A stretch of DNA of 14,511 nt from an uncultured Clostridia bacterium. Lineage in GTDB: Bacteria > Bacillota > Clostridia > Christensenellales > UBA1242. The notes beneath the pieces were generated by a model. It was not told where the DNA came from. It searched no databases and saw only the letters and a list, made by a program, of their open reading frames with translations. Below, piece after piece: positions 8,411 through 14,235 of this stretch. Made by a program: the position numbers and the translations under genes. Every line of letters starts with the position of its first letter. Position 1 is the first letter of the stretch. The stretch covers positions 1-14,511 of the forward strand of contig CANRLJ010000008.1 in assembly GCA_947631485.1 (NCBI GenBank), written 5' to 3'.

Positions 8411-8437
8411 TTCGACACGTTTATTTTTCTTGCGACA
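8411..8437. promoter_or_regulatory. Two Spo0A-box-like sites upstream of spo0A
   Basis: TTCGACA at 8411-8417 is the exact reverse complement of the Spo0A-box consensus TGTCGAA. A second copy with one mismatch, TGCGACA, starts 20 bases later at 8431-8437, about two helical turns away on the same face. Both lie about 90-115 bases before the spo0A start codon, which suggests autoregulation as in Bacillus. No convincing sigma-A or sigma-H promoter was identified in this 270-base gap. Confidence 0.55.
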
Positions 8438-8525
8438 ATATCGTTCAATTTTCCATTTTAATTTTGCTTTGTTTTATGTTAATCTTTGTTTGTTTTGCAG
8501 AACACTTATCAAAAAGGAGATTATC

Positions 8526-9269
8526 ATGGAAAAAGTAAAAGAAAAAAGATTGCCTAAGATTTACATCGCTGACAACTCTGAGGACATTGTCAACTATTTT
8601 AAACAAAATGAAAATTTTGAGTTTGTGGGAACAAGTTGTGACGGAACAAAGGTTGTGGAAGAGGTCGTTGAACTTAAACCCGACATCCTGGTCTTGGAGG
8701 TTATGCTTGCTGGGCTTGACGGCTTTGCCGTTTTGGACAAGATTAAGGTTCTTAAAGAAAACATGCCAAAACTCTTCTTTGTGTCAAACCTCTCTCACAG
8801 CGGATTTGTCACAAAAGCCATCCAATCGGGGGCAAGTTATTTTATGGTTAAACCCGTTTCACCAGAAAACTTGGAGAACAGAATTTTGGAGGTGCTGAAC
8901 AATGGCCGTTCACAAAACGAAAACAAACAACTTGACGAAAAGATTTCAAACATTTTTATCAGCATTGGCATCCCTGCGCATATAAAAGGTTATCAGTTTC
9001 TTCGCGAGGCTGTGAAACTTGCAGTTGAAGAGCCTGAAATCATCGGCTCAATCACCAAAAAACTCTATCCAACCATTGCCGAGAGGTTTGAAACAAGTTC
9101 AAGCAAGGTTGAAAGAGGCATGCGCCATGCCATTGAAGTTGCGTGGAACAGGGGTAAAATAGAAAATATTAACAATATTTTCGGTTTAAAGATATATAAT
9201 AGAAATGAGAAGCCAACAAACGGCGAACTCATTGCCTTAATAGCCGACAAAATGATTATGGACGGCTGA
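8526..9269 (+). CDS. spo0A: Sporulation master regulator Spo0A with altered receiver site
   Basis: Spo0A is the response regulator that starts sporulation. The start is the ATG at 8526 with AGGAG six bases before it; the open frame extends upstream to a TTG at 8430 but that stretch is leader. The 247-residue product aligns over its full length with Bacillus Spo0A as I recall it. The effector domain is well kept: GIPAHIKGYQFLREAV (149-163), GSITKKLYP and the recognition-helix region SKVERGMRHAIEVAW (193-207). The receiver is altered: the phospho-acceptor Asp in VLDI is Glu58 (codon GAG), the acidic pair ADD is AD16-N17, and the MP after the acceptor is LA. Ser87 and Lys109 (of MVKP) are present. 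Spo0A-like boxes lie upstream. Confidence 0.95.
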   Translation: MEKVKEKRLPKIYIADNSEDIVNYFKQNENFEFVGTSCDGTKVVEEVVELKPDILVLEVMLAGLDGFAVLDKIKVLKENMPKLFFVSNLSHSGFVTKAIQSGASYFMVKPVSPENLENRILEVLNNGRSQNENKQLDEKISNIFISIGIPAHIKGYQFLREAVKLAVEEPEIIGSITKKLYPTIAERFETSSSKVERGMRHAIEVAWNRGKIENINNIFGLKIYNRNEKPTNGELIALIADKMIMDG

Positions 9270-9348: not shown

Positions 9349-9377
9349 TTGAAATACAAAAATTGATGTGTTATAAT
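9349..9377 (+). promoter_or_regulatory. Promoter of the secreted protein gene
   Basis: TTGAAA (9349-9354) and a perfect TATAAT (9372-9377) are separated by 17 bases. Transcription would start near 9384, just before the AGGAGG site, so the leader is very short. The promoter position rules out the TTG at 9363 as a start codon. Confidence 0.75.
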
Positions 9378-9401
9378 AAAGGCAATTTAGGAGGTCATTT
9401 T

Positions 9402-11051
9402 ATGTCTAGAACACTTTCAAAAATCTTGGTTATATGTGCTTTGGTCGTAATTCTTCCACTCACAATCGTGGGCACGGCTTTTGCAGCATATTACTCAGTT
9501 GATGCAGTTGTAAACATCACCATCCAAATCGTTGGCGAAACCGCAGCAGAAGGCAGCACAACCGCTTTGGCAGGTGTGAGATACAATGGCAAAGATATGG
9601 AAGAAAATTTTGTTGTTAAAAGAAGCCACCTCGACACTGTAACTCTTCAGGCAGTGGGCGTTGGATATGACTTTTTGGGCTGGTATGAAGGCACTGCTGA
9701 GTCAGATGCAGAAGAACTTATTGCAGATGGCGAATCCATTGGAGAAGGCTCTGCAGAACTGACTTTTGATATGAAGGCAGAAAAATCATATGTTGCAGTG
9801 TTCCAAGTTGTTAAATATAAAGTTGCTTGGCATTACGTAACAACTCCTGACAACGGACTTGATCAAGATGTTCAGTCAGTTGAACCAAATGGCGTTGCTT
9901 CAAGCACAACCTATGTTTATGGCGCAGAATTGCCAACACTCAGTGAAGACGGCGTTACAGGTTATTATGGACATAAAAATGGTGCATGGTGCATGTATAA
10001 TGTTGATGGCGGAATCGACAAGACCGCACACTATGCACGTGCAGAATTCAATGTAGCACCAGAAGAAAGAGAAAATATCACTCTTACTTATGACTGGGTT
10101 AAACAAGGAGTTGTAAGAGTCAACTATTACAACTACGCTGACCGCACAAACCCAAGCCGTGTTGCTTTGGCAGTTGATGAAGTTACAAAGGCAACAGCAA
10201 ACGAATACAACTATGCAACAAGTTTTGCAGCAAAAAGTATCGAGGCAGAAGCCGGCTATCATTGGACCACTTTCCACAGATACAACGGAAGAGATCTTGC
10301 AACAGTTGAAGCAGAAGATTTGTCAAAATCTGAAGTTGGTGAATCAGTCGACATCTTTGTAAACAGAGATTATGTAACATACAAAGCATCCATCACAGCA
10401 TCTGAGGCTGCAGAAGAGTATACAGGAGCAAACAACATCGAGTTTAAAGTAAACGAAGTTCAAAACGCTCAAACCTTGTTTGCAGATTTCTTCAATGAAG
10501 ACAAATACGAGAAAGTTTACTCATTTTATGAACTGCAAGGAATCAAAGTTGGAAGCGGAAGCTTAATTGAAAGCACAAACGCAAACGCTTTGAGCACAGC
10601 CTTGACAAGTTTCATAAACGAACACAAAAATGAAACAGCAACACTTGAATTCACAGCATCATTTAGAACAGAATTCACAATTTCAGTCACAGATAATGTG
10701 AAATTCTCATCAACAGATGAAGCACACCTTGATAATAATCCAGAAGTTTATACAGAACAAAAAACTCAACTTCAGGAGAAAAACCTCTCAGCAGCAGTTG
10801 CCACAACCAAGACACTTGAAGAATACTTTGAATTAAAAGAAATTGGCAACCTTTATGACAGCAATGGAGATGGAAGACAAGAAGTTCAATTCTGGGCAGT
10901 TAAGGTTAATGATGAAACAATCACAGGACTTACTTTGAGCAGCACAATCAATGACCTCATTGAAAAGGTTCAAGGCACTCTGAAGGCACAAGACGGAAAG
11001 TTCACAGTTCAATCTTTGGAAGTTGTATTTGAAATTAAACCTGCAGAGTAA
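9402..11051 (+). CDS. Secreted InlB-B-repeat-like surface protein
   Basis: The ATG at 9402 follows AGGAGG by seven bases and begins a classic signal peptide: a basic MSRTLSK, a hydrophobic core, and TAFA with predicted cleavage after Ala28. The mature part (about 520 residues) is rich in Ala, Glu, Thr and Val, acidic and predicted beta. It contains FLGWYEG (91-97), the hallmark of InlB B-type (Listeria-Bacteroides) repeats, and an EF-hand-like loop DSNGDGRQE near the C-terminus. There is no LPXTG sorting signal, C-terminal membrane helix or S-layer domain, so how it stays on the cell is not evident; it may be released. It has its own promoter. Exact function unknown. Confidence 0.82.
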   Translation: MSRTLSKILVICALVVILPLTIVGTAFAAYYSVDAVVNITIQIVGETAAEGSTTALAGVRYNGKDMEENFVVKRSHLDTVTLQAVGVGYDFLGWYEGTAESDAEELIADGESIGEGSAELTFDMKAEKSYVAVFQVVKYKVAWHYVTTPDNGLDQDVQSVEPNGVASSTTYVYGAELPTLSEDGVTGYYGHKNGAWCMYNVDGGIDKTAHYARAEFNVAPEERENITLTYDWVKQGVVRVNYYNYADRTNPSRVALAVDEVTKATANEYNYATSFAAKSIEAEAGYHWTTFHRYNGRDLATVEAEDLSKSEVGESVDIFVNRDYVTYKASITASEAAEEYTGANNIEFKVNEVQNAQTLFADFFNEDKYEKVYSFYELQGIKVGSGSLIESTNANALSTALTSFINEHKNETATLEFTASFRTEFTISVTDNVKFSSTDEAHLDNNPEVYTEQKTQLQEKNLSAAVATTKTLEEYFELKEIGNLYDSNGDGRQEVQFWAVKVNDETITGLTLSSTINDLIEKVQGTLKAQDGKFTVQSLEVVFEIKPAE

Positions 11052-11285: not shown

Positions 11286-11309
11286 ATTCTAGTCAAAATT
11301 CTAGTCAAA
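11286..11309. repeat. Tandem 12-mer duplication at the integrase stop codon
   Basis: ATTCTAGTCAAA occurs twice back to back (11286-11297, 11298-11309). The right copy contains the integrase stop codon and its last codons (Phe-Asp-stop); the left copy repeats Phe-Asp-stop beyond the end of the gene. Confidence 0.85.
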
Positions 11310-12302
11310 CTTAGGGTATAAATCGCCGTAAATTAGGCGCAATTTGCGCTCTGGTATGATTTCCTTTATGTTTGTGTAGATGTTATTTGTCGTCACAATC
11401 GAACTGTGGCCAAGTTGCATTTGGCGATATTTGTCGCTCGCACCAAGGAAGAAAAGGTTTGCAGAACATGTGTGACGCAAATTGTGCAGACTCTTTTTTT
11501 CAATTCCTAGGCTCTTAAATATGTCAGAAATCACTTTTGTAGGGTATTTGATTCCAAATTGAAACGTGTTGGACGACATATTCTTCTTCAAAAACTCTAT
11601 GAAGGCAGAGGTGACCGGCACATATCTATCGGCTCGCTTCGTCTTTGTTCCGTGAACGTGCAAAAGTTTTTTCCTTTCATCAATGTCTGTAGCAAGGTTG
11701 AATCGTAATGTTTCTTCTCTACGGCTGCCAACAATGATTGAGAAAATTGCAAACGTGTAAATCTTTTTATGCTTGATGGCCTTCAGAAACCGCAACTGTT
11801 CCAGAAAGGTGAGTGGAGTGCGCTCTTGCACATCATCACGCAGAGGTTTGTCAATGCCGAGCGTCACATCACGTTTAATTTTTCCAGTCGCATAGGCTTT
11901 TCTCAAGACTCTGTTCGTCTTTTGGAACAAAATTTCTTGCGTTCTGCCTTTTTCAACTTTGGCCAAAAACTTTTGAACCAATTCCGGTGTGACATTTTCT
12001 AAGTAGATGTTTTGGAAAAATGGAACAAAGTAGTTTGCCCTTTGTGAAAACCAAGAACTGAGTTCCTTTGGGGAAATCTTTTTTGTTTTGACAAAGTTTT
12101 CAATATAAAAATCAAAATACTGAACAAACGTTAATTTTCTTGAGTTTATGGTTTTGACCGTCCTTACTTGTCGAGGGATGATGTTTGGAATCTTCTCCAA
12201 GAGTGCCCGGTATGTTCCTGCAATGGCATAATACAACACGCCGTTCTCCATCTTGGAATATTGCCAGCGACCGTCAGGGCGTCTGTAACAATTTTTTTTC
12301 AT
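11301..12302 (-). CDS. Tyrosine recombinase/integrase
   Basis: A 333-residue phage/ICE-type integrase that would insert and excise the element. The start is taken at 12302 because an AAAAGGAG site lies eight bases upstream and the conserved arm-binding domain begins there (KKNCYRRPDGRW, AP2-like). Residues ~55-140 form the core-binding (SAM-like) domain. The catalytic domain has Arg194 in GSRREE, Lys220/222 in GTKTKR, His273 and Arg276 in HNLRHT, His299 in LGHS and the nucleophile Tyr309 in NNIYTNI, so it looks active. The frame is open a further 40 residues upstream, but that part belongs to a separate small ORF. The gene's 3' end faces tRNA-Val. Confidence 0.93.
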   Translation of the reverse strand: MKKNCYRRPDGRWQYSKMENGVLYYAIAGTYRALLEKIPNIIPRQVRTVKTINSRKLTFVQYFDFYIENFVKTKKISPKELSSWFSQRANYFVPFFQNIYLENVTPELVQKFLAKVEKGRTQEILFQKTNRVLRKAYATGKIKRDVTLGIDKPLRDDVQERTPLTFLEQLRFLKAIKHKKIYTFAIFSIIVGSRREETLRFNLATDIDERKKLLHVHGTKTKRADRYVPVTSAFIEFLKKNMSSNTFQFGIKYPTKVISDIFKSLGIEKKSLHNLRHTCSANLFFLGASDKYRQMQLGHSSIVTTNNIYTNIKEIIPERKLRLIYGDLYPKFD

Positions 12303-12507
12303 AGTGCTATCTCCTTTTAAATTTTCTGAAGCTAGCACTTTTTGACTGTTTATGACTGTAATTTTGTTGCGCTCGATTTGATAGTTTGCTTCCAGACCCA
12401 TGAGGTGGCCAATCATTATCAAAGTCTTGCGCTTGTTTTCTGTGCAAATTGAAATTACACTTTTGTCGTGCTCAACGCACTCTTCTAAATTTTTTTAGTT
12501 CTTCCAT
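12303..12507 (-). pseudogene. Frameshifted small ORF upstream of the integrase
   Basis: An ATG at 12507 with AGGAG eight bases upstream (12516-12520) starts MEELKKFRRVR and stops after 11 codons at 12472. The frame switches at a run of seven A (12490-12496 on the minus strand): with one A fewer, translation continues as MEELKNLEECVEHDKS and onward for about 65 residues and runs in frame into the integrase start. The downstream part (ICTENKRKTLIMIGHLMGLEANY and so on) reads like a genuine small protein. It may be a mutated gene, a site of transcriptional slippage, or a sequence error. I do not recognise the family. Confidence 0.5.
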
Positions 12508-12616
12508 AAATTTTTCTCCTTTTTGTTTTATTTGGCATATTTTGTGGTTATTTTTCTTTATTTTGCATATACTTGTTCTAGGTCAACAAAAAATTTTGAA
12601 AATTTTTTAAAAAGTG

Positions 12617-12646
12617 TTGACTTTGATTATTGTGTTGTGTTAAAAT
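12617..12646 (+). promoter_or_regulatory. Promoter of the candidate small RNA
   Basis: TTGACT (12617-12622) and TAAAAT (12641-12646) are separated by 18 bases, on the plus strand, opposite to every gene around it. The predicted start is near 12653. The motif TTGATTATTGT in the spacer (12623-12633) recurs at 12703-12713. Confidence 0.55.
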
Positions 12647-12652
12647 ATAACC

Positions 12653-12747
12653 AGATGAAAAGAGAATCACCTCCTTTTCACAAATGACTATGGTTTGTTC
12701 TTTTGATTATTGTTTGTTATAAAGTCCTACTTCGGTAGGGCTTTTTT
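12653..12747 (+). ncRNA. Candidate small RNA with an anti-Shine-Dalgarno loop
   Basis: Between a plus-strand promoter and a terminator lies a unit of about 95 bases. It begins with a 7-bp hairpin (TGAAAAG 12656-12662 with CTTTTCA 12674-12680) whose 11-base loop AGAATCACCTC displays the anti-Shine-Dalgarno core. The exact string ATCACCTCCTTT (12666-12677) equals the 3' end of bacterial 16S rRNA. An unstructured U-rich linker follows, then a terminator hairpin. The only ORF is 10 codons (MKRESPPFHK) with no ribosome binding site. The layout resembles Gram-positive small RNAs that use C-rich loops to block ribosome binding sites. Expression is unproven. Confidence 0.45.
12721..12747. terminator. 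UUCG-loop terminator
   Basis: AAAGTCCTAC (12721-12730) pairs with GTAGGGCTTT (12735-12744) with one G-U pair, closed by a TTCG tetraloop and followed by a T-run to 12747. It ends the candidate small RNA on the plus strand. It may also serve the DUF3825-like gene on the minus strand, whose stop codon overlaps it, but the minus-side T-tract is weaker. Confidence 0.85.
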
Positions 12748-13534
12748 ATCTGGTAAGCCAATTAGTTTCTGGTTTAGATATCAATCTTGCGTTACTATAA
12801 GCCATATCCAAAGTTAGACAAGTGTGTCCTGTATAATATTGCCCATGCTTTTCTACGGCGAGGACAATATCTGTTGTTTCGTTGTCATGTAGGCAAAGGG
12901 GTAGTAGGAACTGCATTCTATTCTTGTAATATTGTGGAACAGCAATTTTGTAGTTCAGTTCTAATTTCTTCTTTAAAATTTCGACAGCACCTTGAAAAGC
13001 AAGCAATAGTGCTGGATTGTCTTGCATATCCGCAGGCAGTCTTTTTTTATTTTCTTCATCTTCAAGAATGTGGTCTATATTTATCATTAGCGGAAGCCTT
13101 GTGTCAAAAAGCAAATCAGAAAGAGAAGATATATATTCGGCCTTTTTTGGTTTCTGTTCAAATCTAGATACCTCTAAACTAGATTCCTTAAAAAATCCAA
13201 CACAGTAATATGGCTGTTGTGTTTCCCGGGCACTTTTTTTGAAAAGCATATAAATTCGCTCATAATTTTTTGTCATCAAACCCGTGTTTATAAGCACACA
13301 ATTATTCTTAAAAACGATAAAGTTAGAGTCGTTGTTCTCGTTATACAGTTGAGCTAGTCTCTTGAAAGTAAAAACTATGTAGTTAAATAAAATGGGGCTT
13401 TCAGTTGTATCTTTAGATTTTGAAATGCGTTCCCAGTTTTCTGCTTGTGCTAGTTCTTTTAAGTTTTTTAACAAATCTAATCGAACATAAGCAAAGTCCA
13501 ACAATTCAGTTGTTATAGTATTTTTGTTTTCCAT
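12746..13534 (-). CDS. DUF3825-like protein
   Basis: A 262-residue soluble protein whose C-terminal third matches DUF3825 as I remember it: PQYY (200-203), LLPL (210-213), a Tyr-Thr-Gly stretch, TLDMAY (241-246), NAR (248-250) and a final Trp259. The N-terminal part is helical and the middle contains a VLINTGLMTKNYERIYMLF block also typical of the family. The molecular function of the family is unknown to me. The ATG at 13534 shares its A with the TAA stop of the HTH gene before it, and a GGAAGG-type site precedes it, so it is translationally coupled to the regulator array and probably controlled by it. It is the last gene of that operon. Confidence 0.65.
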   Translation of the reverse strand: MENKNTITTELLDFAYVRLDLLKNLKELAQAENWERISKSKDTTESPILFNYIVFTFKRLAQLYNENNDSNFIVFKNNCVLINTGLMTKNYERIYMLFKKSARETQQPYYCVGFFKESSLEVSRFEQKPKKAEYISSLSDLLFDTRLPLMINIDHILEDEENKKRLPADMQDNPALLLAFQGAVEILKKKLELNYKIAVPQYYKNRMQFLLPLCLHDNETTDIVLAVEKHGQYYTGHTCLTLDMAYSNARLISKPETNWLTR

Positions 13535-13881
13535 TATTCACCTTCCTTTTTGATTAAATCTTCGAGTGGAACTCCGACAACAGTTCCAAACATGCCCTTC
13601 AGAACATTGAGTTGGTCATCATTGAGTTTTTGTATATAGCCGATAATCTCTCTCTGCAGGGGAGTGAAACTATCCAGGTGCAGCACATTTTTAGTCTGGT
13701 GGCCAAGCAAATAATCGATTGAGCAACCAAAATAGTCGGCAAGTTTAAACATGATTTCTGGCGGTGGATTTACTTTTCCCAACTCGTAGTAACCATAATT
13801 GGCCTGTGGAATTCCTAAATCTTTTGCTAATTGACGTTGAGTCAAACCATTGTTTCGCCTTAAAATCTTTAAATTATTCAT
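13534..13881 (-). CDS. XRE-family HTH regulator, copy nearest DUF3825 gene
   Basis: A 115-residue Cro/C1-type repressor. The helix-turn-helix spans about residues 14-34 (TQRQLAKDLGIPQANYGYYE), followed by KLADYFGCSIDYLLG (46-60), the usual end of this fold. Residues 62-115 form a small C-terminal domain of unknown role. The C-terminal half, including 50-77, is identical to the next copy upstream, whereas the recognition helix differs, so the two should bind different operators. The start has an AGGGGG site five bases upstream. The stop overlaps the DUF3825-like start codon by one base. Confidence 0.92.
   Translation of the reverse strand: MNNLKILRRNNGLTQRQLAKDLGIPQANYGYYELGKVNPPPEIMFKLADYFGCSIDYLLGHQTKNVLHLDSFTPLQREIIGYIQKLNDDQLNVLKGMFGTVVGVPLEDLIKKEGE
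13604..13740 (-). repeat. Duplicated C-terminal segment, copy A
   Basis: This segment is nearly identical to 13958-14094 at a constant offset of 354 bases with no indels. Runs of exact identity cover 13604-13640 (37 bases) and 13706-13740 (35 bases). It encodes the end of the HTH fold and the C-terminal domain of the regulator. Confidence 0.9.
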
Positions 13882-13890
13882 AAAATCCCC

Positions 13891-14235
13891 CTACTGTTCC
13901 TGTTTTAACAATTCTTCAAGTGAAGCTCCGGCCATTGTGCCCAAAGTGCCTTTCAGGACATTGAGTTGGTCATCATTGAGTTTTTGTATATAGCTGATAA
14001 TCTGTCTCTGAAGGGGAGTAAAACTGTCCAAGTGCAGCACGTTTTTGGTTTGGTGGCCTAGCAAATAATCGATTGAGCAACCAAAATAGTCGGCCATTTT
14101 GTTCAACATTTCAATAGAGGGGCTTATTTTATCTTGTTCGTAGTAGCAAAAAGTTGTTTTTGCAATATTTAGTGCTTGAGCACACTCTCTTTGCGTAAGG
14201 TTTAAATTTCGCCTTAAAATCTTTAAATTATCCAT
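13891..14235 (-). CDS. XRE-family HTH regulator, middle copy
   Basis: A 114-residue Cro/C1-type repressor, paralogue of its two neighbours. The helix-turn-helix (residues ~14-34, TQRECAQALNIAKTTFCYYE) is clearly different from that of the downstream copy, but from residue 48 the proteins are almost identical, including KNVLHLDSFTPLQR and YIQKLNDDQLNVLKG. The ATG has an AGGAGA site six bases upstream that also contains the stop codon of the preceding gene. The gap to the next gene is nine bases, so all are on one message. Confidence 0.92.
   Translation of the reverse strand: MDNLKILRRNLNLTQRECAQALNIAKTTFCYYEQDKISPSIEMLNKMADYFGCSIDYLLGHQTKNVLHLDSFTPLQRQIISYIQKLNDDQLNVLKGTLGTMAGASLEELLKQEQ
13958..14094 (-). 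repeat. Duplicated C-terminal segment, copy B
   Basis: Partner of 13604-13740 with exact runs at 13958-13994 and 14060-14094. The high DNA identity, against divergent N-terminal halves of the same genes, points to recent duplication or gene conversion of only this part. Confidence 0.9.

Follow-up and report, generated by a model that had tools for sequence, protein, structure and literature searches.

A Spo0A with glutamate at the phospho-acceptor position in gut Clostridia that are almost devoid of histidine kinases

Introduction

Phosphorylation of Spo0A is described as the trigger of sporulation in both the relay and the direct architectures (PMC6136694, PMC11210211, PMC3533761), and Asp55 is given as the phosphorylated residue of the Spo0A structure 1qmp (PMC13187877). 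The 0A boxes bound by the regulator are treated in PMC8102284. The presence of spo0A has been used as a marker of sporulation in uncultured gut genomes (PMC11536998), in a paper whose main text contains neither "phosphoryl" nor "histidine kinase".

Receivers without the acceptor aspartate have been described in other regulators. According to PMC4395418, glutamate is the commonest substitution in such aspartate-less receivers (26%), and glutamate can activate some receivers (PMC4395418, PMC12632262). For Spo0A itself, the laboratory change of Asp to Glu is reported there to be insufficient on its own for activation (PMC4395418). ChxR, an OmpR/PhoB-type regulator, is a natural Glu-type pseudo-receiver in which changing the glutamate did not abolish DNA binding (PMC4395418). 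A second position of interest lies two residues after the conserved lysine (K+2). In CheY, phenylalanine at K+2, the commonest residue there, is reported to bias the protein to inactive conformations, while alanine, isoleucine, leucine, or valine shift it towards active ones (PMC12632262); the main text of that paper does not name Spo0A. Our search of open-licence papers turned up neither a natural Glu-type Spo0A nor sporulators free of kinases.

Here, we describe a Spo0A encoded in a 14,511-nucleotide stretch of DNA, referred to below as the window, from the genome of an uncultured Clostridia bacterium (780 kb, 118 contigs, 76.6% complete), and compare it with Spo0A across its genus, family, and order.

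Results

The spo0A gene occupies positions 8526 to 9269 of the forward strand as an intact open reading frame for 247 amino acids, with an ATG start and a ribosome-binding site, AAGGAG, at 8514 to 8519. The predicted protein matches the Pfam families Response_reg (53 bits) and Spo0A_C (131.5 bits), in the expected order of receiver followed by DNA-binding domain, and scores 231.5 bits against the full-length NCBIfam equivalog model TIGR02875 (spore_0_A), whose cut-off is 200. The receiver spans residues 11 to 124 (8556 to 8897), as delimited by alignment to the Spo0A chain 1dz3_A, the Response_reg match, and the predicted fold, and its best sequence matches among solved structures are the Spo0A chains 1dz3 and 1qmp. 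The Spo0A_C domain covers residues 140 to 242 (8943 to 9251). An AlphaFold2 model built from 30 sequences retained the receiver fold, with mean pLDDT values of 92 to 97 for residues 11 to 80 and 72 to 90 for residues 81 to 120; the lowest value (72) fell in the loop at residues 91 to 100, and the first helix was short (residues 19 to 27). Foldseek returned the expected folds only, with 1qmp and 5wq0 among its matches to Spo0A receivers and DNA-binding domains, a result that cannot separate active from inactive states. One of the 120 homologues listed in the protein search, 85% identical, carries the source name Candidatus Caccovivens sp. By domain order, equivalog score, and fold, the product is a bona fide Spo0A by descent.

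In the alignment to 1dz3_A, Glu58 (codon GAG, 8697 to 8699) corresponds to Asp55, the former metal-binding acidic pair Asp16-Asn17 (8571 to 8576) to acidic residues 9 and 10, Ser87 to Thr84, and Lys109 to the conserved lysine. Both the phosphorylatable aspartate and the complete acidic pair are absent from the window's Spo0A, which has Glu58 and Asn17 in their places. These are regulatory features and not features of orthology; their absence lowers the likelihood that the protein works like phosphorylated Spo0A, not that it is Spo0A by descent.

Glutamate at position 58 is nearly fixed in the genus and has been retained there. It was present in all 120 of the best of 7,997 protein matches (one of them the window's own), in 79 of the 80 loci kept from related genome contigs (locus L097 has Asp), and in 66 of 68 Spo0A genes of the genus, with Asp in genomes G007 and G023; the three surveys overlap. 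The genus sample comprised 77 genomes, from which 68 Spo0A genes were read, and G010, G043, G047, and G071 lay outside the reading. The initial annotation of the window had pointed to glutamate in place of the acceptor aspartate and had suggested alignment of related genes as a check; the alignment confirmed the substitution, and there is no Asp majority in the genus. Across the order outside the genus, glutamate occurred in 6 of the 44 sequences that have a letter at this position (G081, G091, G100, one of two copies in G102, G110, and G113).

The acceptor codons of the 68 genus members are GAA in 46, GAG in 20, GAT in one, and GAC in one. Parsimony on the Spo0A tree assigned 13 synonymous (A/G) changes to codon 58 versus 2 changes between Glu and Asp. 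At positions that exchange freely, the corresponding ratios were 6:7 (position 71) and 7:4 (position 122), and at twelve other conserved glutamate positions the number of Glu/Asp changes was 0 in eight and 1 to 5 in four. Both Asp cases nest within Glu branches of the tree, the exact place of G007 being without support. The codon history suggests that glutamate itself, beyond its acidity, appears to be retained by selection at position 58. The conclusion of the initial annotation that the substitution is not a simple read error also held, since glutamate is encoded by both codons in many independent assemblies and the reading frame is intact. A second, canonical Spo0A was likewise not found in the window's own 76.6% complete genome, whose one other Spo0A_C protein is a receiver-less product of 125 amino acids (locus L002, 342 to 716, reverse strand).

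The remaining active-site positions showed a mixture of conservation and drift. Asp16 and Lys109 (within Lys109-Pro110-Val111, 8850 to 8858) are invariant in all 68 genus members. At position 17, Asn occurs in 18 of the 68, with Lys, Ala, Ser, Thr, and others in the rest, so that the idea of Asn17 as a fixed feature was wrong and is ruled out by the genus alignment. Erosion of this position is not special to the genus, because the order is also non-Asp in 17 of 45 sequences (gaps included), with Asp in the other 28. The reported replacement of the conserved proline after the acceptor by alanine is true of the window (Ala62, 8709 to 8711), but the genus mostly has serine (50 of 68). In the loop that follows beta-4 (Ser87-Asn-Leu-Ser-His91-Ser92, 8784 to 8801, then Gly93), position 87 is Ser or Thr in all 68 members and Ser90/Thr90 is conserved. 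His91, Gly93, and Phe94, which lie beside the active site, are invariant (68/68); in 14 genomes of sister genera they are present in 5, 11, and 14, respectively, and the order is more variable.

Two further features distinguish the receiver. Helix alpha-1 is the docking place of histidine kinases on ordinary receivers. The stretch from Asp16 to Gly35, which holds this helix, is at most 21 residues long in 63 of 68 genus members, 23 residues long in 40 of 45 order sequences, and 22 to 24 residues long in 14 other family members. Judged from these lengths, the alpha-1 region is shortened in the genus. At K+2, the residue two after Lys109 (Val111 in the window), all 68 genus members have Val, Ile, or Leu, and in 48 order rows the residue is Phe in 21 and Val, Ile, or Leu in 16. 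Over 24 genus pairs with dS between 0.05 and 1.2, the median dN/dS was about 0.29 for the receiver and about 0.02 for the DNA-binding domain, a roughly tenfold difference. With a median of this size, the receiver is not decaying freely, and conservation among the 68 members reaches 97% or more at Glu58, Asp16, Lys109, Asp65, and 25 further positions of the domain.

Histidine kinases are almost absent from the genus. Of 73 genus genomes, 5 (G004, G009, G012, G037, and G040) contain HisKA, compared with 47 of 48 in the remainder of the order, where G081 was the sole exception, and with none of 14 genomes from other genera of the family. A wider sample consisted of 396 order genomes with a minimum completeness of 85% and with the window's own genome added. 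Here, 43 genomes were without HisKA, some of them identified by their absence from the list of HisKA-bearing genomes: 25 members of the genus, 14 from ten further genera of the family, and four from other families (G081, G122, G393, and G395). In each of the five HisKA-bearing genus genomes, a strong HisKA/HATPase_c match adjoins the receiver of an open reading frame of 229 to 250 amino acids, the pairing being read from the place of HATPase_c alone in G004, G009, and G037. By this arrangement, the five kinases look like members of ordinary pairs and not like orphan sporulation kinases.

The counts of HATPase_c matches were in line with this, at 3 to 4 in 61 of the 73 genus genomes. The window's own genome has three, namely GyrB, a SpoIIAB-sized HATPase_c_2 protein, and MutL. 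The 14 other family genomes have 3 to 6 matches, which do not go beyond 2.7e-18 in strength and for the most part have the size of GyrB/ParE/MutL or SpoIIAB (judged by score and size), and the strongest match in kinase-bearing order genomes is usually 1e-24 or better (only 2.0e-18 in G109). Such counts can hide a kinase: G015, with the usual four matches, encodes a LytS-type kinase adjacent to the regulator of that kinase. In G041, a HATPase_c protein of 116 amino acids stands alone.

Other receivers are also nearly absent. Exactly one receiver match was found in 61 of the 73 genus genomes, none in 3, and more in 9. In the single-match genomes, the match was taken to be Spo0A mostly from its score; that of G012 is the regulator beside its kinase. 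Each of the nine multi-receiver genomes has one match at Spo0A. The extra receivers lie beside a kinase in G009, G037, G040, and G004 and form the LytS-type pair in G015, while those of G016 and G044 adjoin a large ATPase-like open reading frame, accompanied in G016 by an apparent DNA methyltransferase (by eye). Further extra receivers occur in G028 (of the same length as that of G044), in G039, and on contig 63 of G037, and G004 has five more receiver matches, three over the cut-off and two below it. In all 14 genomes from other genera of the family, the only receiver match lies in Spo0A. With the kinases of the lineage, any classical phosphate route to Spo0A would therefore have been lost. 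The earlier suggestion that this Spo0A may be active without a phosphorelay thus gains support from the genomes, in which kinases and other receivers are almost absent, in the genus as in the 14 other family genomes, and SpoIVA is kept in the genus.

The order of these changes can be read in part from the sister genera. Of their 14 kinase-less genomes, 12 have Asp at the acceptor, and the 2 with Glu belong to a single genus (g48). In place of the second acid of the metal site, motifs read by eye show Asp in 2 genomes, Glu in 3, and a non-acidic residue in the other 9. Because 12 of the 14 keep Asp, kinase loss most simply preceded the change from Asp to Glu in the genus of the window, and glutamate is therefore not what made Spo0A independent of them. 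As stated, the notion that Glu causes kinase independence is ruled out by these genomes. Five order genomes (G091, G100, G102, G110, and G113) combine HisKA kinases with a Glu-type Spo0A. Kinase-free life thus neither requires glutamate nor follows from it. Four genomes from outside the family also have no HisKA, and they are diverse, with Glu in G081, Asp in G395, a degenerate site in G393, and a truncated gene in G122. The Spo0A tree, which left out rows G393, G122, G119, G096, and G080 and the paralogues, placed the genus in one clade (68/68, support 0.77). The deep branch order is unsure, because the family was not recovered as one and G081, from another family, groups beside the genus. 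The position of this HisKA-less, Glu-type gene (locus L014) may reflect convergence, transfer, or a long-branch effect.

SpoIVA is retained in the genus. Among the 73 genus and 48 order genomes covered by the counts, it was found in 72 (missing from G029) and 39, respectively; it is in pieces in G039 and G047, and in G069 it is a piece of 31 positions. Homologues of YpeB and SpoVG are also encoded in the window. Pfam identified a spoIIA-like cluster of STAS, HATPase_c_2, and sigma-factor genes in locus L222, and the same cluster is present as open reading frames in L219, L224, L227, and L228. From these genes, we infer that these uncultured bacteria probably sporulate; the retention of SpoIVA and the spoIIA-like cluster are circumstantial evidence that Spo0A controls the process.

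0A-like boxes are enriched upstream of spo0A. The letters TGTCGAA, which we take to be those of the 0A box, were found upstream of spo0A in 40 of 68 genus loci versus a mean of 3.0 and a maximum of 7 in 60 shuffles, with start codons chosen by rule, and also in 10 of 14 family members and 23 of 45 order genomes. In the window, a putative autoregulatory site of this sequence lies on the reverse strand at 8411 to 8417, 109 to 115 bases upstream of spo0A. The evidence lies in this recurrence, because single matches are common: the whole window holds 3 seven-letter 0A-like matches, with 1.76 expected. Of five spoIIA loci inspected, four show no 0A-like box in the roughly 100 bases before spoIIAA, and the fifth, L219, has one TGGCGAA near this gene.

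Spo0A_C also occurs outside full-length Spo0A. At least two Spo0A_C matches were found in 66 of 73 genus genomes, the receiver-less frames being roughly 120 to 175 amino acids long where listed, and similar proteins occur elsewhere in the order. They are possible competitors or partners at 0A boxes. A receiver-bearing Spo0A is present in 72 of 77 genus genomes; G006, G012, G017, G032, and G416 apparently have only receiver-less Spo0A_C proteins, through real loss or assembly gaps. In two genomes of sister genera (G154 and G360), loci L285 and L286 encode second Spo0A-like paralogues of about 250 amino acids whose N-terminal part has no receiver match.

Upstream synteny is not conserved, with L13-S9 beside spo0A in just 2 of 80 loci. 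Downstream, spo0A is adjoined by a gene at 9363 to 11051 (forward strand) whose product is a probable exported protein (by eye) with no match in Pfam or PHROG; 35 of 80 genus loci have a homologue on the strand of spo0A, about 0.8 to 1.5 kb beyond the spo0A start. Positions 11301 to 14235 (reverse strand) encode an integrase (phrog_1), a phrog_11623 protein, and two similar tandem HTH genes, of which the one scanned encodes a phage-type regulator. By its gene content, this region is a mobile element that has integrated downstream of spo0A, and 3 of 80 related loci have homologues of the integrase and HTH genes.

Discussion

Our best explanation, to which we assign a probability of about 0.55, is that the window's gene encodes a pseudo-receiver Spo0A that would be active-like without phosphate and controlled by its own synthesis or by other input. 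In the proposed course of events, a lineage of small-genome Clostridia would have lost its histidine kinases, after which the metal-binding acid would have eroded, the acceptor Asp would have become Glu, and the alpha-1 region would have shortened. Without phosphate, Glu58, Ser/Thr87, Lys109, and Val/Ile111 would probably then keep the receiver active-like and competent to dimerise. Spo0A would bind 0A boxes whenever it was made in sufficient amount, and the sporulation decision would rest on spo0A expression, autoregulation, and other binding partners, possibly the receiver-less Spo0A_C paralogues. Four parts of this account are inferences: that Spo0A is no longer phosphorylated, that it is constitutively active, that its amount controls it, and that the bacteria do sporulate.

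It is plausible that Glu58 mimics phosphorylation in this Spo0A, as Val, Ile, or Leu occupies K+2 throughout the genus and the glutamate is retained. Other changes would have to contribute, because Asp to Glu alone is reported as insufficient in Spo0A and DNA binding by ChxR was not lost when its glutamate was changed. Counting against the explanation as a whole, Asp is kept in most kinase-less genomes of the sister genera, five order genomes combine Glu with kinases, and four of the five spoIIA loci lack a nearby 0A-like box. In a broader form, the explanation would state that a whole family of gut Clostridia starts endospore formation without phosphotransfer, using a one-component Spo0A controlled by abundance or a ligand, which in this genus is locked by a selected glutamate at the acceptor; for this extension, we regard the odds as even.

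The strongest alternative, though one we consider unlikely, is that the protein is not constitutively active and that a ligand or partner protein in a remodelled pocket (Glu58, Asp16, Lys109, and the Ser-His-Ser-Gly-Phe loop) has replaced phosphate as the input. Purifying selection on the receiver, with its median dN/dS of about 0.29, speaks for such a switch, as does the invariance of His91, Gly93, and Phe94 in the genus and their lesser conservation in the sister genera. However, the invariant loop could instead serve dimer packing, K+2 and Glu58 both favour a built-in active state, and the proposal names no ligand or partner.

A markedly less probable reading treats the receiver as a remnant under relaxed selection, with the DNA-binding domain sufficing for function and Glu58 a tolerated, near-neutral change. 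Drift at position 17 and at the proline position fits such a decay, as do a dN/dS ten times that of the DNA-binding domain and the dispensability of the ChxR glutamate for DNA binding, as reported in PMC4395418. The five genus genomes that seemingly encode only receiver-less Spo0A_C point the same way, although incomplete assemblies could explain them. Against decay stand the strong conservation of Glu58, Asp16, Lys109, Asp65, and the 25 further positions, the rarity of Glu/Asp exchange at a codon where synonymous change is common, and the persistence of a receiver-bearing Spo0A in nearly all genus genomes (72/77).

We consider it very improbable that Spo0A still receives phosphate, be it from an unrecognised kinase, from acetyl phosphate, or at a different residue (Ser, Thr, or His). 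Ser/Thr87, Ser/Thr90, and His91 are conserved and could be invoked as such residues. The kinase searches covered HisKA and HATPase_c, which leaves room for a Hanks-type Ser/Thr kinase, and G015 and G041 hold the LytS-type kinase and the lone HATPase_c protein described above. Yet the acceptor Asp and the metal site are gone in nearly all genus members, and phosphorylation by acetyl phosphate requires both. The low HATPase_c counts of the genus and the housekeeping-like scores and sizes of the other family matches argue likewise against a hidden kinase. Finally, a sequencing error, mis-binning, or a pseudogene can be dismissed despite the fragmented genome (118 contigs, 76.6% complete), as the same residue recurs, through both codons, across many independent assemblies and the open reading frame is intact with its ribosome-binding site.

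A lineage that has sporulation genes and Spo0A without kinases and without the acceptor makes it possible to test two questions: which role is left for a receiver after the loss of phosphorylation, and whether the level of Spo0A suffices on its own for the sporulation decision. Dozens of natural Glu-type Spo0A proteins, together with the Asp-type sister genera, form a graded evolutionary series for this purpose. Collectively, these findings suggest that a large group of small-genome gut bacteria, whose Spo0A seemingly no longer accepts phosphate, decides on sporulation by other means than kinases.

Compared with known systems, the protein resembles the Spo0A of Bacillus and Clostridium (TIGR02875) in its domain order, Spo0A_C sequence, equivalog score, and upstream 0A-like box. 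It differs in its acceptor glutamate, the loss of a metal-binding acid, the shortened alpha-1 region, and a lineage almost without histidine kinases. As in the Clostridium systems described in PMC3533761 and PMC11210211, no Spo0F/Spo0B relay is expected; there, however, Spo0A is phosphorylated directly by orphan kinases, and none was found here. The degenerate acceptor in a DNA-binding response regulator is shared with the aspartate-less receivers ChxR of Chlamydia and HP1043 of Helicobacter. In common with pseudo-receivers, the acceptor is replaced (Glu in 66 of 68, with position 17 eroded), the fold is kept in the AlphaFold2 model, and K+2 is enriched for Val, Ile, and Leu. Unlike the case of ChxR, the protein here is the master regulator of sporulation; what is unusual is that Spo0A itself has taken this form, in a lineage that has shed nearly all of its other two-component proteins.
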